Shown here: positions 18,476 through 31,430 of the stretch, piece after piece
Layout: every line of letters starts with the position of its first letter
Position numbering within the stretch: the first letter of the stretch is position 1
The notes under the pieces: model-generated
The model's database searches: none
Seen by the model: only the letters and a program-made list of their open reading frames with translations
Told to the model about the DNA's origin: nothing
Program-made: the position numbers and the translations under genes
Source of the DNA: Holophagaceae bacterium
GTDB taxonomy: Bacteria; Acidobacteriota; Holophagae; Holophagales; Holophagaceae
Direction: 5' to 3'
Assembly: GCA_009783055.1 (NCBI GenBank)
Contig: WRHW01000005.1
Span: 1 to 64,000 of the forward strand
DNA length: 64,000 nucleotides

Positions 18476-18982
18476 TTATTTTCTGTCGACCTTGATTGAA
18501 TATTTATTGTCAGCGAGGCCAGACAACCAAAAATAAACTTCGCATGGATCTGGAGCCGTGTTTTTTAGACTCAACACAGTTCTTTTTGCCTTCAACTGAT
18601 TATCCATGTCTCGCTTGATCTTTGAATACAGTGGATGGCTATTGTCTCTTGGCAAAAGCCAGTTGAGGAAATAGCTATCAGGGGGCATAGCCTTCAAGGA
18701 CAGCTTAACTTGCTCTCCGGGATTGAGTTGGACAGAAAAAAAGCGTATGCCCCTTTTTCTCGAGTCTGTAGAATCATTAACTCCTGCGTACGAATAGGAT
18801 TTGTCCTCAGGCATAGCATTTTCCGCAATTAGAGTGACATCTCGAGGAACGCGTATGTTTTCTTGTGCACCCTTGGAGTAGTCCATCTGGCTCTGTTGGG
18901 TGTTTTCCTGCCCAGAACTAGTTAAGTTATGCGTACCTGACATAAGCAAAAATGAAAAAGCAAAGATACCATAGCAATTCAT
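18476..18982 (-). CDS. Small secreted protein of unknown function (left copy)
   Basis: A 168-residue exported protein: signal peptide at residues 1 to about 20 (CYGIFAFSFLLMSGTHNL), a QENTQQSQMDYSKGAQ linker and a mature domain with NPGEQVKLSLKAMPPDSYFLNWLLP. It is homologous to the right-hand protein at 30951: compare NPGEKIRLTLKCIPS, the YSK/DYSKLS motif and the matching C-termini YSIKVDRK and YTVTIDRN. AAGGAG precedes the ATG. It is the outermost gene of the left arm of the mirrored locus and may be exported with or act on the transport system. No known family was recognised. Confidence 0.75.
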   Translation of the reverse strand: MNCYGIFAFSFLLMSGTHNLTSSGQENTQQSQMDYSKGAQENIRVPRDVTLIAENAMPEDKSYSYAGVNDSTDSRKRGIRFFSVQLNPGEQVKLSLKAMPPDSYFLNWLLPRDNSHPLYSKIKRDMDNQLKAKRTVLSLKNTAPDPCEVYFWLSGLADNKYSIKVDRK

Positions 18983-19170: not shown

Positions 19171-19857
19171 CTAGTAAGGCATTTCAAACTGGTACTTCAC
19201 CGTCAGGCCAATCCAAGCTGGAAAAACTCGGTTATATCCAGCTACCTTATGTGGGGATACCAAGACATCTCTTCTTGGCGAACTTTGCGAATCGTTCTTC
19301 CATGTGTAGAGGTTATAGTCAAGGCTGACGCTGAGGTCTTTCCACACATTGTAATTAACGCCAAATCTCAGGCCCAGTTTTGCTTTGCCTTCGGGGTGTG
19401 GTCCTGGAGGCAAGGGGGTGCCATCGTATTTGAAATCATTTGGGTAGTTAGTGGCTCTTAGTTGGGCCAGGTAGTCGCTCTCAGTATCGCGACGGCCATC
19501 CCACCACATATAGCCAACACCCAGATAGGGCTTTAGACCGGCAACTGGGGTCTGAAAGGTAAAATCAATCCCCACGCCCCAAGACATAAGATTTTGCTGA
19601 AGTTCTATGGCTTCGTTGTAATCGCCACTCCAGCGGGTGTAGCGACCGAATAGCCGAAGACCAACGAACTCATCCTGCCTAAAGTCGTAACCCATTTCAA
19701 ATCCGTGGCCAGTGGTTTTGCCACCCTGATAGGCTCTTAAGTCTGCTTGCGAGAAACCCATCGTTGCGCCGAGGTATAGCGGTTTCTCGACATCCTGTGC
19801 TATCAGCCCTAGAGAGGCAGTACCCAAGATGCAAAGAGTGCATAGTTTTTTAATCAT
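19171..19857 (-). CDS. Small outer-membrane beta-barrel protein (left copy)
   Basis: A 228-residue protein with a signal peptide (MIKKLCTLCILGTASLGLIAQ) and alternating aromatic barrel strands, ending KYQFEMPY. It parallels the right-arm protein at 30002: YLGATMGFSQADLRAYQGGKTTGHGFEMGYDF versus the equivalent KDYLGGKSNGWGFEGGYDF, and GKAKLGLRFGVNYN versus NKAKLGLRIGADYH. CAGGAGG precedes the ATG. It follows the TonB receptor gene by 18 nt and is surely co-transcribed with it. The role is unknown; it may be an accessory outer-membrane component of the receptor. Confidence 0.82.
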   Translation of the reverse strand: MIKKLCTLCILGTASLGLIAQDVEKPLYLGATMGFSQADLRAYQGGKTTGHGFEMGYDFRQDEFVGLRLFGRYTRWSGDYNEAIELQQNLMSWGVGIDFTFQTPVAGLKPYLGVGYMWWDGRRDTESDYLAQLRATNYPNDFKYDGTPLPPGPHPEGKAKLGLRFGVNYNVWKDLSVSLDYNLYTWKNDSQSSPRRDVLVSPHKVAGYNRVFPAWIGLTVKYQFEMPY

Positions 19858-19875: not shown

Positions 19876-22800
19876 CTAAAACTTGAGCCCAAGGCTGGTT
19901 GAATAGTTTCTGTTTCCACTGCGTTGGTTAATCAAACCAAACCTATCGAAGTTGTTTACCTGGAACCCAGCATCATAGTCCCATGGCAACGTGCCTCCAC
20001 CGTAGCCCATTATAAGGGCGGTGGCGGCGTCAGCAGAGCCAACACTGTGATTTGGGTATACGGTATTAAAGATGTCGCCAATCTGGAATTCTGCAAAGAA
20101 GTTCAACTTCCCTTTGAGAGGAATGGTAAAATTCCACTTGAAGTCAACCATGAAGTTATCCATGTCGGTCCACTTACCGCGTCCATTAAAGTATCTGTTA
20201 TAGGCAGTAGGGATGTTGACTGTCAGGATTGAGCCATCATGAGTGGGGTTGAAATAAGCCCAATATGGATTATTACTGGCGTTTCCAGTATTGTTTAATT
20301 GTTGCGAGGCACGGCGATCCATTGGGGCACCAGTCTGGTAGTTGCCGAGCATAGAGAATGTGTGGCGAATGCCTCCTCTTTCTCCAAGATTCCATGTAAT
20401 CCATGTATTGATGACATTGTGCTGGCTGTACCTCAACTCACCTTTGGGGTTCCACCATTCGGTGGGAACACCTGCGGCCTCATATAGTTCCGGCCACCTA
20501 GAAGACGTATAATAAGAGTTATTGCCCTCTCTCCAAGGCTCATAGCCTTTTGTGCGCGCCACTGTCCAGTTGCCTGCGAAGTGTAAGTTTTGGTATGCCG
20601 ACTTGTATAGAGGATAGCTCCACTCCATTTCGAGCCCATGATGGGTTCTGCTACCTTTTGGATCCACCTTCAGAATCTGCATATAGCCACCATAGGTCTG
20701 TTGCACGGGGTTGGTGATGACGGGATCGGGAGTCCCAAACCTCTGCCAAACATCTATGTAGTCGCGGAAAACAGCCGAAATGCGGAAAGAACCACCATTT
20801 TCAAAACCACGCCGATAGCTGAGAGCATATTCAACCGCGGCTGTGGGTTTGAGTCCTGGGTCGACCCAGTACTGAACATGGCTGTCTGTCATCGAATATA
20901 GGTGCCCATAGTTGGATGGATTTATTACATCTTCAAAAGATACCCATTGTGGATTTTCGGGTGTACCAGTGCCCTTATCCCAGAAATAGGTAAAAACCTG
21001 GTTGCCGTTGTATTTCCCAAACAGGTTAGTTAAACTTCCGCTATTTATAGTCCCTCTGAAGTGGGCATAGGAGAATGAGAAGAGGTGTTGATTGTCGCCA
21101 AAGGGGTCGTATTTAACTTCGAACCTGGGTGTAATGGTACTTGAGTCTATATAGCGACCACTAACGGCATCCGCGGTATATTTATCATACCGGAGGCCTG
21201 CCATGATGCTCCAGCTATCATTTATAGACCAGAGGTCATTTACATAGATACTGGTTGTGAGGTACTCGTTAGTATCACCGCCAGAACCAGACCAGTTGGT
21301 CGTCCTGTATTGAGGAATATAATTAGTAGCTGCCCTTAAAGACTCATAAGAGTAACCGGTAGAGACACCATTGTCATAAATAGTCCCTGTTCCAGTCTGG
21401 GCAAGGGAGCCGATGTAATTATAAACAGCGTACATCCCATCCAGTCTGCGGGCAGGTGAATAGAACATTTGATTATTGGGGCCGTACTGCACAGAGTTTA
21501 GTGAACGTTCGGCCAATCGTTCAACGCCGAAATCTATGTTGTGACTTTCGGTAAACCAGTTGTAATTGACACCCCAAGTCTCGGAGTTTCTTACTTCTCT
21601 GGGTCCCATACCAGTCTGGCCATTTGACAACACAGAACCTGCCGAATACTGGTTGCCCTGTCCAATAATTGATGTAAGCGCTTCATTGTTATACCACTGA
21701 TTGATATAAATAGGATCCCCAGGACCACTTGCAAAGGCGATTTCATTAATTCTTTCGCCCCACCTTGCTTCAAGAACGCCATTACCTCCGAATACACCCC
21801 TGTATTCAATAGAGTTGAAATCCCTGTCAGAAGACTGATAGTCAACAAAGTCTGTACCACCCCACCCTTGGAAGTATGGGCCGAAGGGGTTGCGGGAAAC
21901 CTGTGCAGAAACCTGATGGTTTTGCCCGATTAGCCAAAACAGTTTGTATTGGTAAATTTCTGATGGATAAGCACCGTAAGCGGTGAGAGAAGTGTTTGGT
22001 GTGGTTCCCCAAAGGTAGCCCAAATTGTCACTTGCCCCTTGGAAGTTGGGGATAAATCTCCAACTTTGGAGAGAGTAGTTTGTGTTGGTGCTCTGACCAT
22101 TTGTGGCAGGAGTGAGAACCGTGCCAAAAGAGAATGTCAGGTGGTCAGGAATAATCGGGCCAAACACTGTAACTTCCCAAGTCTTGCTGATGTTATCTAT
22201 ACTAAGAGTCGGGGGATTAGAAAGCCTCTGTCCCAGTCTACCAAACAGTCCACGATTTGACTGAGTGTTCCACCAGCCGTGGCCAAGATTGGCTCTGATG
22301 GTACCTTCGAAGTAGTTCTTCCCAGTTTTTGTGGAAATAGCCACCAAGCCACCGGAATTATTGCCGTACCTAGAATTCAGAGCGGACTGCATGACTGCGA
22401 CATCCTCGATCATGTCATTCAAAACTGCTTCATAGTTTCTGCCCTGGCGAACCGTTGGGTCTTTAAGGCTGATACCGTTGACCATAAAGGCTGTTTCACC
22501 AGTCAGACCACCGCGAACAACTGGGTAGTCGGTGGCACCGCCAACACCAGGGGAAAGCCAGATTGCTCCATAGGCATTTGACGATACTGGCAGGGAAGCC
22601 AAAGTCTCTAAGTCGAAATTGGTCGAAGTTTTTGTTTGGGTTTTATCGACAGTGGCTGAAACCCCTACGATTTCAACTTCTGTTGCGGCCACGGTTGTTG
22701 CCTTGAGATCAAAATTTTGGCGAACAATACCACCGCCTGCCACTCTGAAGGTGGACTTACTACCGATAAACCCGGGCTTGCTTACGGTGAGTGTGTACTG

Positions 22801-23025
22801 ACCGGGGAGCAGTAGGTTAAAACGGAAATTGCCCTGTTGGTCTGTAACCAAGGTGCGAGAGACTAAAATAGCGTCGCCGGAAATAACCAGAGTTGCTCCT
22901 ACTGCTGGTACTCCGCCTGGTTCCCTTACCGTCCCAAGAACGGACCCCACACTTTCCTGCGCCGATAGGCTAGTGGCTACGAGTGTAGCCGCCAGAAAAG
23001 TCAATCCTTTCGTGTTTAACATCAT
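19876..23025 (-). CDS. TonB-dependent receptor, Oar-like, with N-terminal carboxypeptidase-regulatory domain (left copy)
   Basis: A 1049-residue outer-membrane protein. It has a signal peptide (to SLSAQ) and a Carboxypeptidase-regulatory-like Ig fold (about residues 25-110: GSVLGTVREPGGVPAVGATLVI, LLPGQYTLTVSKPGF). A plug domain follows (about 130-250: YPVVRGGLTGETAFMVNGISLKDP, NSRYGNNSGGLVAISTKTG), then a 22-strand-type barrel ending NYSTSLGLKF. Such receptors take up large or complexed nutrients by TonB energy. There is no SusD partner. It is paralogous throughout to the right receptor at 26771. GGAGG lies upstream of two adjacent ATGs. The substrate is unknown. Confidence 0.9.
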   Translation of the reverse strand: MMLNTKGLTFLAATLVATSLSAQESVGSVLGTVREPGGVPAVGATLVISGDAILVSRTLVTDQQGNFRFNLLLPGQYTLTVSKPGFIGSKSTFRVAGGGIVRQNFDLKATTVAATEVEIVGVSATVDKTQTKTSTNFDLETLASLPVSSNAYGAIWLSPGVGGATDYPVVRGGLTGETAFMVNGISLKDPTVRQGRNYEAVLNDMIEDVAVMQSALNSRYGNNSGGLVAISTKTGKNYFEGTIRANLGHGWWNTQSNRGLFGRLGQRLSNPPTLSIDNISKTWEVTVFGPIIPDHLTFSFGTVLTPATNGQSTNTNYSLQSWRFIPNFQGASDNLGYLWGTTPNTSLTAYGAYPSEIYQYKLFWLIGQNHQVSAQVSRNPFGPYFQGWGGTDFVDYQSSDRDFNSIEYRGVFGGNGVLEARWGERINEIAFASGPGDPIYINQWYNNEALTSIIGQGNQYSAGSVLSNGQTGMGPREVRNSETWGVNYNWFTESHNIDFGVERLAERSLNSVQYGPNNQMFYSPARRLDGMYAVYNYIGSLAQTGTGTIYDNGVSTGYSYESLRAATNYIPQYRTTNWSGSGGDTNEYLTTSIYVNDLWSINDSWSIMAGLRYDKYTADAVSGRYIDSSTITPRFEVKYDPFGDNQHLFSFSYAHFRGTINSGSLTNLFGKYNGNQVFTYFWDKGTGTPENPQWVSFEDVINPSNYGHLYSMTDSHVQYWVDPGLKPTAAVEYALSYRRGFENGGSFRISAVFRDYIDVWQRFGTPDPVITNPVQQTYGGYMQILKVDPKGSRTHHGLEMEWSYPLYKSAYQNLHFAGNWTVARTKGYEPWREGNNSYYTSSRWPELYEAAGVPTEWWNPKGELRYSQHNVINTWITWNLGERGGIRHTFSMLGNYQTGAPMDRRASQQLNNTGNASNNPYWAYFNPTHDGSILTVNIPTAYNRYFNGRGKWTDMDNFMVDFKWNFTIPLKGKLNFFAEFQIGDIFNTVYPNHSVGSADAATALIMGYGGGTLPWDYDAGFQVNNFDRFGLINQRSGNRNYSTSLGLKF

Positions 23026-23067: not shown

Positions 23068-23880
23068 CTAAAAACGTAGGCCAATGCAAAAATCTAGAGT
23101 TACCTTGCTGTCAGAACCAGTAGTTGTGTGGGCAGTTGCCCCGGTATAGACAAAAGGCTGATACTCTACAGTTGAGTAAGACATCCAACCAAGATTTACC
23201 TCGGTAAAGAAATGTTTGTCCAGTCGCCACTGAGCACCTACAAAGAAGCCAGGGCTTACGGAGTTAGCGGCAGGAGTATGGTTGAGGCCCTCACGATGCA
23301 CCAACACAGGAGTGCCGGCGGTTGCGGCTGGTACTGTAGGTATGCGATCGTACACCCTTAATTCGCCAAGTACTTCCTGTTGGTAGATCATGGAAAATAC
23401 TGTCAGGCCAGCATGGGCATAAAAGTTGGTATCGGGAAAATTGTATCTGTAGCCCAATGTAAGGCCCCAACCCTCTAATACGTCATGCCTCATGTCAACA
23501 GAACCACGGGTGGCAGAAGCCGGGTCTTGATTAAAAATATGACCAGTGCCTGTAGGGGTATAGCCTACGCCAGTCCAAAAATTAAAGTCGCCATAGCCAG
23601 CGGGTTTATTTGTGAGCCGCGTCCTGTCTTTCCAGTCCGCCTTCCAATACTTGTATCCAAGTTCGGCAAATAATTCGTCTTTAGGACCGATTAAGGAAAG
23701 TTTGTAGTCGCCCGTGACTGCAAAGTTGAGTGCCCCCCGGGAGTTTTGGGCTTCAATGCCACCAGTCAGAGCCATACCACCACCAAACTTGATGCCATAG
23801 GATATTTCCTGAGCGTTGGCCTGATGCGATGTCCCCAACAGCACTAGTGCTACCAAGGGTATATTAAAAATTGATCTCAT
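23068..23880 (-). CDS. Outer-membrane beta-barrel protein, first gene of left arm
   Basis: A 270-residue barrel protein with a cleavable signal peptide (MRSIFNIPLVALVLLGTSHQANAQ), starting at ATG 23880 after AGGAGG. It is homologous to the right-arm protein at 25962: ISYGIKFGGGMA versus WGFGLKVGAGIG, and the C-termini QPFVYTGATAH...LDFCIGLRF versus TPYVYTGNPST...LEFSAGFKF. It is the promoter-proximal gene of the left operon, 42 nt before the receptor gene. Only 124 nt separate its start from inverted repeat L. I saw no convincing promoter in that gap, as expected if this arm is currently silent. Confidence 0.82.
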   Translation of the reverse strand: MRSIFNIPLVALVLLGTSHQANAQEISYGIKFGGGMALTGGIEAQNSRGALNFAVTGDYKLSLIGPKDELFAELGYKYWKADWKDRTRLTNKPAGYGDFNFWTGVGYTPTGTGHIFNQDPASATRGSVDMRHDVLEGWGLTLGYRYNFPDTNFYAHAGLTVFSMIYQQEVLGELRVYDRIPTVPAATAGTPVLVHREGLNHTPAANSVSPGFFVGAQWRLDKHFFTEVNLGWMSYSTVEYQPFVYTGATAHTTTGSDSKVTLDFCIGLRF

Positions 23881-24004
23881 CGTGAAATACCTCCTATTGA
23901 CAGAATTGACTGTCCAAAAAATGAGATGGTGAAAGAAATTGAACTGCGAATTGCCATACAACCTTTCAAAAAATCGTTATCGTTACTTACGCTCTTAACA
24001 CTGG

Positions 24005-24042
24005 CTGATTGCCCCACATTTTCCCTCCCTGAGAAGGGGGGA
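24005..24042 (-). repeat. Inverted repeat L (putative recombinase site)
   Basis: 38 bases (CTGATTGCCCCACATTTTCC then CTCCCTGAGAAGGGGGGA) that are the exact reverse complement of 25783-25820. The inner part CCCTCCCT-GAGA-AGGGGGG is an imperfect dyad with a short spacer, like the core of a tyrosine-recombinase crossover site. It lies 22 nt upstream of the integrase -35 element. Confidence 0.85.
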
Positions 24043-24064
24043 ACAGCTATAGACTTGGCTTGTA

Positions 24065-24093
24065 TTGACGCAGTAAGTATTTGGATTTACAAT
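24065..24093 (+). promoter_or_regulatory. Integrase promoter giving a probable leaderless mRNA
   Basis: TTGACG (24065-24070), a 17-nt spacer and TACAAT (24088-24093). The integrase ATG starts six bases after the -10 box, so the expected transcription start falls on or beside the ATG. No Shine-Dalgarno site is present. Confidence 0.65.
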
Positions 24094-24098
24094 ACATT

Positions 24099-25208
24099 AT
24101 GAGACAAAGCACAAAAAAACACTCAAAAAATGGTAGTTTTGGGCGCGAAGCCACATGCTCTGAAAGACAGATTGGGCGATTCCAAAAAAATGGCCTGGGA
24201 AGTTGCCAAGATAGTAGCTCCGTGACAGTGGCAGATGCCATACATGCCTATTTCTGTGAAGGCGAAAGGCGAGGGATGAAGAGCATAGCCAGAAGCAGAA
24301 TGAGCGCAAATGCTTGGATTATCCCCATGCTTGGCAACCAAGAAGTTTCAAAACTGAGCAGAGAATTGCTTGAAGGTTGGCTGGGAGCCGTTGCCGAAGC
24401 TCCGCGTAGGGTTAGGACGAAATTGGGGCAAGCGCAAGCCTTTGCCCAGCCACCGGTAACTGATGAGGAAAAGAGGGCACGAAAAGACTCTGCTAACCGA
24501 GTTCTTACAATTCTTAAGGCGGCTCTAAACTATGCTGTCGACCGGGAATTTGTGCACATTGTAGACCCACCATGGAGAAAAATTAAGCCTTTCAGGGGCA
24601 CTGCGAGAGCCAGAGCTAGGTTTTTAAGCATGTCAGAACAGGTAAAACTCCTCGATGCCTGCCCGCCTGAGTTTGGAAACTTAGTAAAGGGTGCGTTGCT
24701 TACTGGTTGCCGATACAGCGAATTGGCACGGCTACGATGCAGGGACTATAACTCAGGCACAGAAATTCCAACTATCTTTGTTGCTGTTTCAAAGAGTAGC
24801 AAGCCTCGCCACATAGTCCTGACAAGTGAGGGAGTAGCACTCTTTGAAGAGCTTACGTCCAAAAAACAAAGCCCCAACGATCTAATTTTTACTAACAGCA
24901 TTAAGAGAAAAAAGCGCAATGGATTAGAAAGCAATGGGTGGCTAGAAAGCGACCAAAAACGATATATAAAGGATGCCTGCACAGCCGCCGGACTCGAAAG
25001 GGTATCATTCCATGAACTGAGGCACACATACGCCTCGATGTTGCTAAACAACAAGTGTCCTACGCCTGTGGTGGCTCAACAACTTGGACATTCTGATTCC
25101 AGAATGGTAGAAAAGCACTATGGACACCTCTTGTCCTCCTATGTAGCAGGTATGGTAAGAGCCACCATGCCTGTTATAGGCATTGTTGGGACTGATAGTT
25201 TTCGCTAG
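24099..25208 (+). CDS. Tyrosine recombinase (phage integrase family)
   Basis: A 369-residue site-specific recombinase. The N-terminal half (about 40-170) is a SAM-like core-binding domain (VADAIHAYFCEGERRGMKSIARSRM). The catalytic domain has Arg205 in TGCRYSELARL, a Lys at about 232-235, His305-Arg308 in FHELRHTYASML, His331 in QQLGHSDS and nucleophile Tyr341 in EKHYGHL, so the full R-K-H-R-H-Y set is present. ATG 24099 is chosen over an upstream TTG because of the promoter position. The gene sits between 38-bp inverted repeats and between two mirror-image surface operons. No phage or conjugation genes are near, which favours a local DNA-inversion role over element mobility. Confidence 0.92.
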   Translation: MRQSTKKHSKNGSFGREATCSERQIGRFQKNGLGSCQDSSSVTVADAIHAYFCEGERRGMKSIARSRMSANAWIIPMLGNQEVSKLSRELLEGWLGAVAEAPRRVRTKLGQAQAFAQPPVTDEEKRARKDSANRVLTILKAALNYAVDREFVHIVDPPWRKIKPFRGTARARARFLSMSEQVKLLDACPPEFGNLVKGALLTGCRYSELARLRCRDYNSGTEIPTIFVAVSKSSKPRHIVLTSEGVALFEELTSKKQSPNDLIFTNSIKRKKRNGLESNGWLESDQKRYIKDACTAAGLERVSFHELRHTYASMLLNNKCPTPVVAQQLGHSDSRMVEKHYGHLLSSYVAGMVRATMPVIGIVGTDSFR

Positions 25209-25501
25209 GCCAGGACACATGAGCGAATTTCAAAACATAAATTTTTTCCAGTATGGAAACCGCCTGAAACGACCTGTTTTGGAGAGTTGCTAGGTGAAAT
25301 ACATGGTTTCTGGGCAAATACAGGAATTTAGAAAAAAGTTCCCTAAATTTTAAAAAAAGTGTAAAATTTTTGATATGAGCGGTTGAATTTTTTGTAACAA
25401 GGTAGTAAATTGATAGCTGGCAGGAGGTCTTATTGATTTTTTCCCATTTCATTGAAGAATTTCATGTCTTGGTTCCCTCGGTGGATCAATACTGCTTTTG
25501 T
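25209..25501. repeat. Tandem module 1 after the integrase (diverged copy of module 2)
   Basis: Non-coding, A/T-rich. It aligns in order with module 2 (25523-25782): a dyad with AATTTAG (25325-25331) and CTAAATT (25343-25349) around AGTTCCC, then AAAATTTTTGATA, then TTTCCCATTT, then TCAATACTGCTTTTG just before a CCCCCCTTCTCAGGG core. An AGGAGG-TTG pair at about 25422-25435 opens a 100-codon frame that I do not accept as a gene. Confidence 0.5.
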
Positions 25502-25522
25502 TCCCCCCTTCTCAGGGAGGGA
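25502..25522 (+). repeat. Repeat R1 (partial recombinase-site core)
   Basis: TCCCCCCTTCTCAGGGAGGG plus A, 21 bases identical to the first part of R2 and in the same orientation. The match stops before the AAATGTGGGGCAATCAG half. It would be an alternative partner for L (inversion) or R2 (deletion). Confidence 0.7.
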
Positions 25523-25611
25523 TATTGCAAAGAAAATTCTGTGGGGGAATCACCGGTGTTCAAACAAATTTGGTCGAAGGGGGGTGATTGGTTTCAGAGT
25601 GAAACTAAAGA

Positions 25612-25632
25612 TTTGGGGAAAAGTTCCCAAAA
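25612..25632. promoter_or_regulatory. Operator-like dyad upstream of the outward promoter
   Basis: Nine-base arms TTTGGGGAA and TTCCCAAAA around AAG, with one mismatch, 25 nt upstream of the -35 box. A degenerate counterpart is at 25325-25349. It could bind a regulator or the recombinase; no protein partner can be named. Confidence 0.4.
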
Positions 25633-25657
25633 TTTTGAAAATAACGAAAATTTTTTA

Positions 25658-25685
25658 TTGATATTTGAAAAAGCTATTGTAAAAT
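25658..25685 (+). promoter_or_regulatory. Outward promoter inside the invertible segment, facing the right operon
   Basis: TTGATA (25658-25663), a 16-nt spacer and TAAAAT (25680-25685), each 5/6 to the sigma-70 consensus. It reads rightward through R2 toward the barrel/TonB operon that starts at 25962. Inversion between L and R2 would turn it to face the left operon. Confidence 0.55.
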
Positions 25686-25782
25686 CTTTGCAAGTAGCAT
25701 CCGTTTTTGTCGAAAACACGCTACGTAATTTTTGAGGGGGTTTCCCATTTTGTTTTTCCTAGTTGACCGATATTGTCTTTTG

Positions 25783-25820
25783 TCCCCCCTTCTCAGGGAG
25801 GGAAAATGTGGGGCAATCAG
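25783..25820 (+). repeat. Inverted repeat R2 (putative recombinase site)
   Basis: 38-base exact reverse complement of L: TCCCCCCTTCTCAGGGAGGG followed by AAAATGTGGGGCAATCAG. Its outer edge is 141 nt from the first gene of the right operon, close to the 124 nt between L and the left operon. Confidence 0.85.
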
Positions 25821-25961: not shown

Positions 25962-26741
25962 ATGATATTCAAAACATCTCGGTACCTTTTGCTGGGGCTT
26001 GGCGTTGGCCTTTTCGTGAACGCCCAAGAGCCAACTTGGGGCTTTGGGCTTAAGGTTGGAGCTGGCATAGGACAGGCCTCTACAAACGAGCAGGTCTCCA
26101 ACATGTCGGTTCACATGGCCTTTACGGCTCAGTACAAGATCGACAGCAAGTCAGCCTTTATTGGCGAGCTAAAGTACATCTACTTCAAAGCCGATGATTG
26201 GGAAAACCCAATGTTTGAAGCCCATGCCACAAAGAATTTTTATTCTGCAGGGGAAATGTGGCTTGACCATCTTCAGCCAGGCACCAAGGTGTGGAGTTCG
26301 ATGTACTACTCCATAGACTATCGTAAGAGTGACCTAGATGGTTTAGTCTTTGGCTTTGGTTACAAGCGTTCTATTATGGACACCAAGTGGTCGTGGCAGG
26401 CTGGCATCAAATTTGATTGGCTAAAATCGCAGGATCAAACTCAGGGCCATGTTGGTCTGTTTGAAGACGAAGCATACGTCAATTCAAGACCTGCAAACGA
26501 CCCCGGAGATGAAATTGTCAGATGGGTTGCCCTCAACGGCAAAAACACCATTAAGCCTGGCGTGTTTGCAGGCATTACTGGTTTTGTCAGCGAAAACGTA
26601 TTTGTCGAATGCAATCTCTCAACTATTGCATACACTCAGCCTTTCTATACTCCCTACGTTTATACAGGCAATCCATCGACGGTTGTGGAGAATTCCAGAA
26701 ATAAAATTGTGCTTGAATTTAGCGCTGGTTTCAAATTTTAA
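25962..26741 (+). CDS. Outer-membrane beta-barrel protein, first gene of right arm
   Basis: A 259-residue protein with a signal peptide (MIFKTSRYLLLGLGVGLFVNAQ) and barrel-type alternating strands, ending in FSAGFKF with terminal Phe. ATG 25962 follows GGAGG; the longer frame has no site. It is paralogous to the left protein at 23068-23880 and occupies the same promoter-proximal place in its operon, 29 nt before the TonB receptor. Its role is unknown. It may be a partner of the receptor or a variable surface protein. Confidence 0.82.
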   Translation: MIFKTSRYLLLGLGVGLFVNAQEPTWGFGLKVGAGIGQASTNEQVSNMSVHMAFTAQYKIDSKSAFIGELKYIYFKADDWENPMFEAHATKNFYSAGEMWLDHLQPGTKVWSSMYYSIDYRKSDLDGLVFGFGYKRSIMDTKWSWQAGIKFDWLKSQDQTQGHVGLFEDEAYVNSRPANDPGDEIVRWVALNGKNTIKPGVFAGITGFVSENVFVECNLSTIAYTQPFYTPYVYTGNPSTVVENSRNKIVLEFSAGFKF

Positions 26742-26770: not shown

Positions 26771-29700
26771 ATGAAATTATCCCATTTAACATCACTGGGT
26801 CTGATGCTGGCCAGCGTTTCACTCATAGCGCAGGAGAGTACCGGAGTCTTGCTTGGTACTGTGAGAGATGAGTCAGGCAATCCAATAGCTGGTGCAACCG
26901 TGACAATCACATCCTCCGTCCTGTTGCAACCAAGAACCATACCAACAAATGCAAACGGCGAGTATCGCGCCCAAATGTTGCCACCAGGTGGTGGCTATAC
27001 ACTCACGGTTTCACATACCGGCTTATTAACCCGAAGGGTTGGTGGACTAACTGTCAGGTCTGGTGTCACCGCCAGGCAAGACATTGTCTTGAGGTCTGCT
27101 GATGTTGCTACTACAACCATCGATATCGTCGGAATGTCTGCCGCTGTGGACAAAACTGAAACCAAGGTATCCACTTCATTTTCTTTTGATGAAATTGAAG
27201 CACTGGTAGCTCCAAGTCTGAATGCCTGGGGTGCCTTGGCGATGTCCCCTGGCGTAGCTGGTAACATCACCTACCCAGTAATCCGCGGTGCCATTACTGG
27301 ACAATCTCAATTTTTGGTAAACGGCGTTTCTGTGAGGGACTCACTGGTTCGCGAGGGTCGTCAAGATGAAAGCGTTATCGCCGACATCATCGAGGACATC
27401 CAAGTAATCCAAAGCCCATTGAATGCTAAATATGGCTTCACCTCTGGCGGTATTGTAAACGTCGTCACCAAGACTGGTGGCAACGAATTCCACGGCGGTG
27501 TCCGCATCAAGCTCGAAAATGATCTTTGGGCCGCTCGTACCCATGATACAGCCCCACGAGTTCCACATCGAACTCGTGTAGGCTTGCCACAGTCATTTGC
27601 AAGTGAGCCATACGAAGACCTACTCTGGAAAACCTACGAACTAAACTTCCGCGGGCCCATTTGGAAAGACCACATTACTTTCACCTACGCCGGCAGGTTT
27701 ATCCCTGAAACAACCGGTTCGGCTGGTGTGGTCAATCTGTTTTCCAGTGGTACCCCTAGGCCATACAACCCCTATTTTGGCAAAGGGGAACTAGGCTTTA
27801 CATACGGCCAGGTGGATATGACACCCGGTTACATCTATGGGGTAGATAAATTACTTACCCAAAACTATAAACTGTTCTGGCAGATTACACCGTCCCAGAC
27901 CCTCTCCTTCGAGGCAACTGTAGACAAATCAGACTACTTTGACGACCAGTTGAGTGGCAATATTGACGTGGAAAATGGCCGTTACCTACAGCGTGCCCCC
28001 ACTGACAATCGTGTGATTCAATACAATGCAATCTTCGGCAATTTTGTTGTCGACCTGAGGTGGGGCACTCACAACACAGACGTAGAATTTTCCTTTGGAC
28101 CTGGAGATCCAATCTATCACGGGACATATTCCGCTGATGCCGAACATTTCTTTGATAGGAGACCATCGGCCAATTCCAACTGGTGGCAAGGTTCAGTGCT
28201 AACAAACGGTGATCGCGGAGACGGAATCCCCGAACACAGAAATACTGCAATGTTAGACGCAAACGTACAGTGGATGAAAAACAATCATCAGCTCGATTTT
28301 GGATTTGCACAGTTCCAAGACATTGTTAGAGGTGGCGGATACCCAGGTATCAACGGTGCTACTTATTATGTTCCAGGCCGTGTGGCGGATGGCAGGTATG
28401 TGGTGTGGAATGTCACCGGCACCTATGACGACCCGCTTCAAGGAGGCAGTAGCCCCACCGATGCTCTTTGGAGAACTGCCGCCCGCATTCCTCGTGTAGA
28501 TGTCGTATCAACAACTGGCTCTAGATATGCTGACAACGAGTTTACAACTCAGGCGGTCTACGTAAACGACCTGTATACCATTAATGAAAAGTGGAGCGTA
28601 ATGGCAGGTCTGAGGTTTGAAAAGTACATTTATGACAGCAAGCTGGGTAAGGAAATTGACAATTCAGACATCCTGCCGCGTCTTTCTGTTAAGTATGACC
28701 TCTTCGGCGATAACCAGCACGTTTTTGACTTAAGCTATGGTCATTTCCGCGGAACAATTGGTCCTGGAACCCTTGGCGGATTCATGCGCTCTCCCAACAA
28801 CAGAAGTGTGAATTATTTCTGGAGTGCTGGCCAACTTGGCACTCCGCTGGGTGATGGCGTGCCGTACTTGGTTTCCAAGGAAGAACTCCTCAATCTAAAC
28901 AACTATACCCCGTACAACTATGTTGACTCTGAACTTGGCAGACTAATTAGCCCAGACATCATGCCTGAAATGAGAACTTCTATCACGATTAATTACTCTA
29001 GGGCATTTACTACAGGTTACTTCCGCGTTGCGGCCATCTTTGACAAGTTCTCCGACATACCCTACATCTCGATACCTGAGTGGACAATTAAGTACACCCC
29101 AGATTTCCCGAACACTGGCATGGAAAACATTGCACCCTATGTTGACCGCTATTTTAGCATCGATCCCTATGGGAAACGAGACTACACAGCACTTGAGGCT
29201 GAGTGGCAACAAAGGCTCTTCGGCACGGCCAAGAGTAACTTAACCTGGGCGGGTAACTGGACAATGGCTCGTATCAAGGGCACCAGGCAGTGGAAGGAAG
29301 GAAATGTCGGCGATAACGCGGCCTACTACTATGAGCAATGGGATAAGGCCGGAGTACGCAGAGAAGCATGGAATCCCTATGGGGAGTTGGATGGAGTGAG
29401 TGAGCACCACAACATTAAGTCTTGGCTTACCTATCATGTGGGCGACCGCACCGGCGTTCAGACAGACTTGACCTTTATGGCCTCATATGTCACTGGCAGA
29501 CCCTATAATCAGACTGCCAACATACGGTTGCCTGATGAGCTTTATAGCCAGGCACAGCTATACACGGTGCTGAATTATGCACGCTATGCGGCATTCTACT
29601 ACAACGACTCGCGCGGCTGGTTCCTTAACCAAGATGGGCCACCCTCCTTTGACCTTAAGTGGAACATGAACATGCCCCTTGGTAAGATATCGCTATTCTC

Positions 29701-29980
29701 TTCAGTGAGTATCTTTAATGTTTTCAACCACTATAGCAGAACAGGCCTTGGCAGGAGTGTTCAAGCCGGGGATATATTTACTTCAGAGGGTATTTTCGAC
29801 TTTGATCCTTCAGCACCAAACTATGGTATGCCTACAGGCCCATACCAGGCAATATGGGGGGATGCAAATGCCTACAATAAAACCAAGGGTTGGGCCGCGG
29901 GCAATCAGGGGCGGTACAGCCGTGGCGGATGGTCTTATAACCAGCGCTATATCTATGTCGACTTTGGTTTCCGTTTCTAA
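26771..29980 (+). CDS. TonB-dependent receptor, Oar-like, with N-terminal carboxypeptidase-regulatory domain (right copy)
   Basis: A 1069-residue outer-membrane receptor with the same layout as the left copy: signal peptide to SLIAQ, regulatory-like Ig domain (GVLLGTVRDESGNPIAGATVTI, PPGGGYTLTVSHTG), plug (YPVIRGAITGQSQFLVNGVSV, NAKYGFTSGGIVNVVTKTG) and a long barrel ending YIYVDFGFRF. Both copies share the linker IVGxSAxVDKTxTKxSTxF. Loop regions differ strongly, so the two receptors probably bind different ligands. AAGGAG precedes ATG 26771. It is co-directional and closely spaced with the barrel genes on both sides. Confidence 0.9.
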   Translation: MKLSHLTSLGLMLASVSLIAQESTGVLLGTVRDESGNPIAGATVTITSSVLLQPRTIPTNANGEYRAQMLPPGGGYTLTVSHTGLLTRRVGGLTVRSGVTARQDIVLRSADVATTTIDIVGMSAAVDKTETKVSTSFSFDEIEALVAPSLNAWGALAMSPGVAGNITYPVIRGAITGQSQFLVNGVSVRDSLVREGRQDESVIADIIEDIQVIQSPLNAKYGFTSGGIVNVVTKTGGNEFHGGVRIKLENDLWAARTHDTAPRVPHRTRVGLPQSFASEPYEDLLWKTYELNFRGPIWKDHITFTYAGRFIPETTGSAGVVNLFSSGTPRPYNPYFGKGELGFTYGQVDMTPGYIYGVDKLLTQNYKLFWQITPSQTLSFEATVDKSDYFDDQLSGNIDVENGRYLQRAPTDNRVIQYNAIFGNFVVDLRWGTHNTDVEFSFGPGDPIYHGTYSADAEHFFDRRPSANSNWWQGSVLTNGDRGDGIPEHRNTAMLDANVQWMKNNHQLDFGFAQFQDIVRGGGYPGINGATYYVPGRVADGRYVVWNVTGTYDDPLQGGSSPTDALWRTAARIPRVDVVSTTGSRYADNEFTTQAVYVNDLYTINEKWSVMAGLRFEKYIYDSKLGKEIDNSDILPRLSVKYDLFGDNQHVFDLSYGHFRGTIGPGTLGGFMRSPNNRSVNYFWSAGQLGTPLGDGVPYLVSKEELLNLNNYTPYNYVDSELGRLISPDIMPEMRTSITINYSRAFTTGYFRVAAIFDKFSDIPYISIPEWTIKYTPDFPNTGMENIAPYVDRYFSIDPYGKRDYTALEAEWQQRLFGTAKSNLTWAGNWTMARIKGTRQWKEGNVGDNAAYYYEQWDKAGVRREAWNPYGELDGVSEHHNIKSWLTYHVGDRTGVQTDLTFMASYVTGRPYNQTANIRLPDELYSQAQLYTVLNYARYAAFYYNDSRGWFLNQDGPPSFDLKWNMNMPLGKISLFSSVSIFNVFNHYSRTGLGRSVQAGDIFTSEGIFDFDPSAPNYGMPTGPYQAIWGDANAYNKTKGWAAGNQGRYSRGGWSYNQRYIYVDFGFRF

Positions 29981-30001: not shown

Positions 30002-30679
30002 ATGACTAAATTTACTAAATCCCTGCTCATGCTTGGAGCAGTACTGGTGACTGCCAATGCGCAGGACACAGACAAAGCCTGGTATCTTAAGGCAAACCTA
30101 ACCCTTCCATTTGCCGAAACTAAGGATTATCTAGGTGGTAAATCCAACGGATGGGGCTTTGAGGGGGGCTATGATTTTGGCTTACCCGATGACTTCAGCT
30201 TTATTACTCCTTGGGTTGCCTATTCCAGATTTGTTGGAAATGTCCGGAAGGACTATCCCGAATCAATTCTGCTTGGTCTCGAGCCAGCCGCTCTCGGACT
30301 GGATGTATATCAGATTGGGCTTAACTTTAAATATCAAACAAACTTGACTGGCTTGCGTCTTTGGGCAGGCATCAGCGTCAACTGGTTTGATGGCAATCAA
30401 ATTACCGCTGGCTACACACCTGGCGAATTAGACCCTGCCGATAACCCCAGAACCGATGCACATGGCTTTGGCGAAAACAAGGCTAAGCTGGGTCTACGCA
30501 TAGGTGCGGATTATCACTTTACTTCCGAGTGGAGTGCCCACCTTTCCTTCGATGCTAGTGCATGGAGATCCGACCCTGACAGGTACGTCCCGGGTGCCCT
30601 GGGTAACAGAACCGGTGTCCACGCCCTCAACCCAATGAGACCAAGCTGGTTTGCCATTTCCGTTGGCTACCACTTCTAG
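30002..30679 (+). CDS. Small outer-membrane beta-barrel protein (right copy)
   Basis: A 225-residue protein with a signal peptide (MTKFTKSLLMLGAVLVTANAQ), barrel pattern and C-terminal ISVGYHF. It is the counterpart of the left protein at 19171-19857: the shared block GENKAKLGLRIGADYH and the final PSWFAISV/PAWIGLTV strand are clear. It begins 21 nt after the receptor stop with GAGGAG upstream and closes the transport part of the right operon before a palindromic repeat and terminator. Function unknown. Confidence 0.82.
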   Translation: MTKFTKSLLMLGAVLVTANAQDTDKAWYLKANLTLPFAETKDYLGGKSNGWGFEGGYDFGLPDDFSFITPWVAYSRFVGNVRKDYPESILLGLEPAALGLDVYQIGLNFKYQTNLTGLRLWAGISVNWFDGNQITAGYTPGELDPADNPRTDAHGFGENKAKLGLRIGADYHFTSEWSAHLSFDASAWRSDPDRYVPGALGNRTGVHALNPMRPSWFAISVGYHF

Positions 30680-30950: not shown

Positions 30951-31430
30951 ATGAAAAAATTTGGCATTTTGGTCTTGGCAATTTTGTTCCCAGTAGTGCT
31001 TTGTGGACAGGGTAGCGAACAGCCCAAGGTTGACTACAGCAAGCTGAGCCATGAAGTAACGGTGGTTCCCAAAGGGGTTACAAAGCTAGAGGAAAAATCG
31101 TTGCCAAGGTCTCTCGATCGGGAATCGTTGGATACTGATATAGCGTCGGCTATGAAGGGACAAAGGGTTTTTTCCATAATTATAAATCCAGGCGAAAAAA
31201 TCAGACTTACCCTCAAGTGCATTCCAAGCAAGGCAATTAAAATTAATTGGGTGGTTCCTGTCGCAAATGACTTGCTGTTGACTGAGTTGAAGAGGCTAAA
31301 CCTTAACCAGTTAAAGCTGAAATCCCCTCGAATAGAACTTAAAAATAAATTGCCTTTACCTTATGAAGCTAGTTTTTACTTGGCAGGCTCGTACGATACA
31401 CCTTATACGGTTACAATAGATAGAAATTAG
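30951..31430 (+). CDS. Small secreted protein of unknown function (right copy)
   Basis: A 159-residue exported protein with signal peptide MKKFGILVLAILFPVVLCG and mature domain KVDYSKLSHEVTVVPKGV...INPGEKIRLTLKC...NKLPLPYEASFYLAGS, ending YTVTIDRN. It is the paralogue of the left protein at 18476. An AAGGAG site precedes the ATG. It is separated from the barrel gene by a palindrome and a stem-loop, so it probably has its own promoter. No known family was recognised; a beta-sandwich fold is plausible from the strand pattern but is not shown. Confidence 0.75.
   Translation: MKKFGILVLAILFPVVLCGQGSEQPKVDYSKLSHEVTVVPKGVTKLEEKSLPRSLDRESLDTDIASAMKGQRVFSIIINPGEKIRLTLKCIPSKAIKINWVVPVANDLLLTELKRLNLNQLKLKSPRIELKNKLPLPYEASFYLAGSYDTPYTVTIDRN

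Follow-up and report, generated by a model that had tools for sequence, protein, structure and literature searches.

A candidate invertible promoter segment with an internal tyrosine recombinase between paralogous outer-membrane receptor operons in a Holophagaceae bacterium

The 64,000-nucleotide stretch of Holophagaceae DNA analysed here (contig WRHW01000005.1, positions 1 to 64,000; hereafter the window) contains a 1.8-kb segment that is very probably an invertible promoter cassette switching two outer-membrane receptor operons. We infer its inversion from the anatomy of the locus, from site pairs with pair-specific spacers in sister species, from segments found there in both orientations, from opposite configurations of orthologous operons, and from a sister recombinase lying at a similar site. 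On these sequence grounds the self-inverting segment proposed in the initial annotation of this DNA gains support. All anatomical points of that annotation stood; what had escaped it were a third site with a further promoter unit, the paralogy of the operons throughout, and a genus-wide site family. Placed between paralogous operons, and with like sites in front of surface genes in sister species, the segment and its relatives look like a switch by which little-studied Acidobacteriota change their coat.

Anatomy of the segment

The segment is bounded by two 38-nt inverted repeats that are, as first described, exact: they are 100% complementary, with 1740 nt between the arms (Table 1). By our own estimate the chance of a perfect 38-nt inverted pair in 64 kb is of the order of 1e-14. 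Each repeat extends beyond the crossover core by 16-18 nt of outer flank, identical in both, and is thus wider than the crossover unit. The core had been read as a dyad of crossover type, which holds, but the dyad as originally drawn is better replaced by 9-nt arms around an asymmetric 7-nt spacer, GTTCCCCCC-TTCTCAG-GGAGGGAAA. Crossover sites of tyrosine recombinases are built from two inverted arms of about 9-13 nt and a 6-8-nt spacer that matches between partners; the window sites have this form, with 9-nt arms, a 7-nt spacer and identical partner spacers. A third copy of the core, R1, agrees at 93% over 29 nt and is direct to the right repeat. It lies within a tandem duplication that has degenerated (units 1 and 2 in Table 1; 71% identical, in two blocks). 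The spacer TTCTCAG is present at three of three sites, and the window holds three same-spacer candidate sites, a multi-site shufflon having at least three.

Allowing up to three mismatches, a search for the 19-nt core found three matches in the window against 0.01 expected from window shuffles. Genome-wide scatter of the 38-bp sequence, as of an ordinary repeat, had been named in the initial annotation as an observation that would speak against inversion; across the 141 contigs of the genome (2.71 Mb; completeness 95%) there are no copies beyond the three window cores, all at this locus. A looser dyad search gave approximate matches in the same genome (C55, C12, C2 and others), which were rejected as standing at the level of the reversed-pattern control.

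Two complete four-gene operons diverge from the segment and are paralogous gene by gene, in the same order. Invertons are flanked by short inverted repeats of 10-40 nt, the segment lying upstream of a gene (PMC11892184). The window repeats measure 38 nt and lie 124 nt from the left operon start (ATG at 23880, minus strand) and 141 nt from the right one (ATG at 25962), the distances originally given. A sigma70 consensus scan of 23.7-26.1 kb returned only two promoter-like sequences, one leading into the recombinase gene and one toward the right operon, a count not above the shuffle mean of 3.8; the same scan found no outward promoter toward the left operon.

Table 1. Features of the segment and of the flanking operons (window coordinates)
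Feature	Position	Strand	Remarks
Left gene 4	18476..18982	-	168 aa; probably exported protein without assigned family
Left gene 3	19171..19857	-	228 aa; OMP beta-barrel
Left gene 2	19876..23025	-	1049 aa; Oar-like TonB-dependent receptor
Left gene 1	23068..23880	-	270 aa; putative outer-membrane barrel
Left crossover site / inverted repeat	24005..24042	-	candidate; core about 24021-24043; abuts left operon; arms GTTCCCCCC and GGAGGGAAA, spacer TTCTCAG on - strand
Promoter-like sequence	24065..24093	+	TTGACG-17-TACAAT into recombinase; consensus match only
Tyrosine recombinase	24099..25208	+	369 aa from ATG; TTG start at 24081 possible; core-binding and catalytic domains
Promoter and site unit 1	25304..25527	+	candidate P1 TTGATA-17-TGTAAC at 25370-25398, read by eye
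Inner crossover site R1	25499..25527	+	candidate; inverted to left site, direct to R2, same 7-nt spacer
Promoter and site unit 2	25589..25808	+	candidate P2 TTGATA-16-TAAAAT at 25658-25685, toward right operon
Right outer crossover site R2 / inverted repeat	25783..25820	+	candidate; abuts right operon
Right gene 1	25962..26741	+	259 aa; paralogue of left gene 1 (27%)
Right gene 2	26771..29980	+	1069 aa; Oar-like TonB-dependent receptor (36% to left gene 2)
Right gene 3	30002..30679	+	225 aa; OMP beta-barrel (31% to left gene 3)
Right gene 4	30951..31430	+	159 aa; 35% to left gene 4

Going by consensus matches and the map, P1 and P2 would be the operon promoters and the operons would be switched by inversion. 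The recombinase would cut within the 7-nt spacer of inverted sites and flip the 1.8-kb segment. In the sequenced orientation the P1/P2 promoter end, on the 3′ side of the recombinase gene, would face the right operon and set it ON, and the recombinase-5′ end would face the left operon, which would be OFF. Recombination of the left site with R2 would invert the 1.8 kb and swap the states (left ON, right OFF). Pairing of the left site with R1 would bring P1 alone before the left operon while P2 stayed with the right one, setting both ON; a crossover between R1 and R2, which are in direct orientation, would remove one promoter unit of 281 bp. The segment would take the recombinase gene along, together with the promoter-like sequence of that gene. 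Expression in B. fragilis is lower the more repeat copies separate promoter and operon (PMC4747536), and by the same effect the inner site of the window could also tune expression.

Related sites in sister species

The same site family, with the refined form GTTCCCRCC-N7-GGYGGGAAC, occurs in two of three sister species (G001 and G002), nearly always just upstream of surface operons at roughly 35-175 nt. The genes downstream form receptor operons and a cluster with a glycosyltransferase-like gene, or encode a lipoprotein-like product and other probably exported proteins. Among 77 genomes of the family, cores with the window-type spacer matched only in the window's own genome (G000), G001 and G002, and in none of the 73 outside the genus. 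When the spacer was left free, two single matches appeared outside the genus, fewer than with the reversed control pattern. A scan of IMG/VR yielded five contigs with one site each. One further match, G002:C106, was discarded as a superficially similar palindrome followed by T-runs that looks like a terminator.

Inverted pairs surround segments of 0.4-1 kb in G001 (C71, C89, C164, C172) and G002 (C114, C123, C129, C196, C204); these segments have no recombinase inside. Both species also hold single sites, several of them near contig ends. Spacers are identical in nine of nine inverted pairs, despite differing arms within some pairs, and differ between pairs: TTCACAC in G001, and TTACCAC, TTTGCAC, TTTACAC (twice) and CTTACAC in G002. 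The spacer TTCTCAC belongs to single sites in both species. A tyrosine recombinase requires identical spacers in its two partner sites, and identity within pairs is the trace expected of such an enzyme. In G002, with four spacer types among five pairs, random pairing of the ten ends matches fully in 3 of 945 ways by our own calculation.

The inner flanks of the sister segments fall into two classes, and each paired segment has one end of each class. A-ends carry TTGACA, 16-20 nt and TGTATG, with 21-32 nt between the end of this motif and the site. B-ends, rich in AT, hold TTTGACAT repeats, often 9 nt apart; the B-end of G001:C288 is the 5′ leader of its recombinase and is 72% identical to the C270 and C271 ends. 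The A-end faces the operon in C7, C102, C164, C165 and C114b, and the B-end does so in C71, C89, C172, C123, C196, C270, C271, C288 and C114r. Either end may thus face the operon, unlike a fixed regulatory element, which would always present the same one. The pattern TTTGACA...CTGTATG was considered as a -35/-10 promoter and rejected: it occurs at A-ends, but reading of the contigs found TTTGACA repeats in B-ends too. These repeats may be arm-type recombinase sites. A tandem of promoter end and inner site recurs in G002 at C129 and C204, with inner sites that are more degenerate but keep the TTTACAC spacer. In G002, L177 (6840-7560) and L201 (7360-8060) hold such tandem units, whose degenerate inner sites parallel R1 and R2 of the window.

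Orthologous operons are found in opposite configurations. Reciprocal best hits pair the left operon with that of G001:C7 (52-59%), and the right operon with those of G001:C270 and G002:C114 (45-65%), as orthologues. The left operon is faced by the recombinase-5′ end in the window and by an A-end in G001:C7; the right operon is faced by the promoter end in the window and by B-ends in G001:C270 and G002:C114. The orthologous operons of the sister species sit in other chromosomal contexts, so that the opposite configurations establish a change of arrangement but not its frequency, and could reflect rearrangement over evolutionary time instead of frequent switching.

Some smaller observations concern the single sites. 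A TTCTCAC site is common to four G001 receptor operons (L165, L170, L171 and L121, corresponding to C7, C270, C271 and C288), of which C7 alone has a promoter-type end, the other three being promoter-less. C270 and C271 have 184 bp of recombinase-leader-like DNA in common (94%), followed by unrelated DNA, a pattern suggestive of decayed cassettes or of exchange between loci.

The recombinase and competing explanations

The initial annotation was also right in placing a complete tyrosine recombinase between the repeats: the 369-codon frame is open, the catalytic residues R-K-HxxR-H-Y are all there, Pfam Phage_integrase is matched with an E value of 2e-24, and the predicted structure matches solved tyrosine recombinases. 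Its closest relative is the G001:C288 recombinase (61-62% identity; sister grouping with support 100/96), and each of the two adjoins a site of the same family. At C288 the site CCCACC-TTCTCAC-AGTGGG lies beside the recombinase gene and is followed by a barrel/TonB-receptor operon, as on the left of the window segment. Most of the other relatives are ordinary integrases of about 440 aa, and no comparable exact inverted repeats were found around recombinase relatives elsewhere. The closest named hits, among them Holophagales bacterium Mcx344_bin57 and Geothrix, place the genome with the Holophagaceae. The G003 recombinase locus was rejected as a switch; it is without sites and has toxin-antitoxin-like and mazG-like genes nearby. 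At G003:C188 (L120 4056-4632), the integrase is separated from a receptor gene, whose N-terminus seems to be missing, by two short ORFs similar to BrnT/BrnA toxin-antitoxin genes.

Relative to full-length relatives, about 75 N-terminal residues are absent from the window recombinase. In the structural model of one relative (L034), residues 28-103 make up a b-b-b-b-a fold of the arm-binding type. The window model is unstructured and of low confidence over residues 1-39; for both proteins the core-binding and catalytic domains are modelled with confidence. No significant remnant of the N-terminal arm domain was detected in the other frames. With the domain present in its closest relatives, the window enzyme appears to be derived from an arm-binding integrase and to be one no longer. 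The DNA has diverged in parallel: exact TTTGACA is absent from the window segment, against one to five copies in each sister segment or end examined, and the CTGTATG motif of the sister segments is absent as well. The window ends are consequently classed as A or B by their position relative to the recombinase gene and not by sequence.

Given a diverged segment and an enzyme without its arm-binding domain, the switch might be frozen, that is, a former invertible cassette locked in one orientation once the domain and the arm sites had been lost. The missing N-terminus and the missing TTTGACA copies are what such decay would leave. We nevertheless regard it as unlikely, since the reading frame has stayed open with every catalytic residue kept and the 38-nt repeats remain perfectly identical. 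The losses from enzyme and DNA coincide, as they would in a simplified system, and the Rci recombinases of shufflons function without an arm-binding domain (PMC8138268).

Much less probable is a small mobile element, either an insertion sequence or a minimal integrative element, whose terminal inverted repeats would be the 38-nt repeats. The recombinase family does include integrases of mobile elements. A second recombinase of the same genome (G000:C21; L118 12490-19975; 447 aa, 52% identical) lies by primase-like and ArdC-like genes, and its locus, which follows an mfd-like gene on the downstream side, is probably an integrative element. The cinA gene next to the left operon, moreover, has different neighbours in sister species. 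Against mobility, the genome holds no further copy, the window has three sites in place of two, and the sister sites flank recombinase-less segments in front of surface genes with spacers that differ by pair. Least probable of all, indeed scarcely credible, is that the repeats are transcription terminators or RNA hairpins and not crossover sites: each core can form a GC-rich hairpin and the palindrome at G002:C106 looks terminator-like, but the window sites have no T-run directly after them, conservation extends through the asymmetric, pair-specific 7-nt spacer, and the leader RNA folds no better than shuffles (z -0.48).

Beyond the invertible cassette, which is the reading preferred here, a wider and rather doubtful scheme can be drawn for the genus. 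In this scheme spacers would encode a network in which like-spacer sites at several loci recombine and one promoter end is shared among receptor operons. The window lineage would have become a self-contained three-site, three-state switch, enzyme and segment having shed their arm-binding parts together.

Relation to known inversion systems

The closest likeness is to the Tsr19 system, of Bacteroides type, in which a tyrosine recombinase lies near the invertible promoter of surface-polysaccharide or outer-membrane-protein genes. There, too, several copies of the inverted repeat can separate promoter from operon, and one enzyme acts at local and distant loci. The differences are that the Tsr19 recombinase, as described, lies near and outside the segment, whereas the window gene is inside; that the Tsr19 promoter, again by description, serves one operon, whereas the window has a paralogous operon on each side; and that phylum and site sequence are others. 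In its working the window system would thus resemble a Bacteroides-type invertible promoter, with its own site family, an internal recombinase and a paralogous operon at each end. The sapA system of Campylobacter fetus likewise inverts a promoter segment that lies between homologous surface-protein genes in divergent order, but by RecA-dependent recombination over long repeats and with no dedicated site-specific recombinase known in the segment.

The sites of R64 Rci are asymmetric with a 7-nt spacer, as in the window. Rci shuffles coding segments, not a promoter, and belongs to a different integrase subgroup. It is nevertheless an inversion enzyme that stands among arm-binding integrases and is itself without the arm-binding domain (PMC8138268). 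The Mpi-controlled capsule promoters of B. fragilis are likewise inverted at multiple loci before surface operons, by a serine recombinase in contrast to the tyrosine recombinase of the window (PMC4747536). The SusC/SusD shufflons of Bacteroides also vary TonB-dependent receptor operons through recombinase-driven inversion (PMC4747536); they undergo shufflon-type multiple inversions at receptor clusters, whereas here the promoter-and-recombinase segment alone would move. No report of invertible promoters in Acidobacteriota was found in the literature searched, with most subscription journals outside its scope.

If real, the switch would mean that DNA inversion lets uncultured Holophagaceae vary entire TonB-receptor operons along with further surface genes, in the manner of gut Bacteroidota, and that the inversion enzyme was recruited from the integrases of mobile elements. 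Two general questions become testable: with the pair-specific spacers, how a single recombinase can keep its many switches separate, and with the joint loss of the arm-binding domain and the arm-like repeats, how an integrase turns into an invertase. The cluster faced by one site pair in G001 (L166 2300-3274) includes a glycosyltransferase-like gene, and surface sugars may therefore also be varied by such switches. In the leader of the left operon, the sequence AAAGGTTGTATGGCAATTC (window 23941-23965) resembles GGTTGTATGGTAGTTC, which adjoins the recombinase-type leader in G001:C270.
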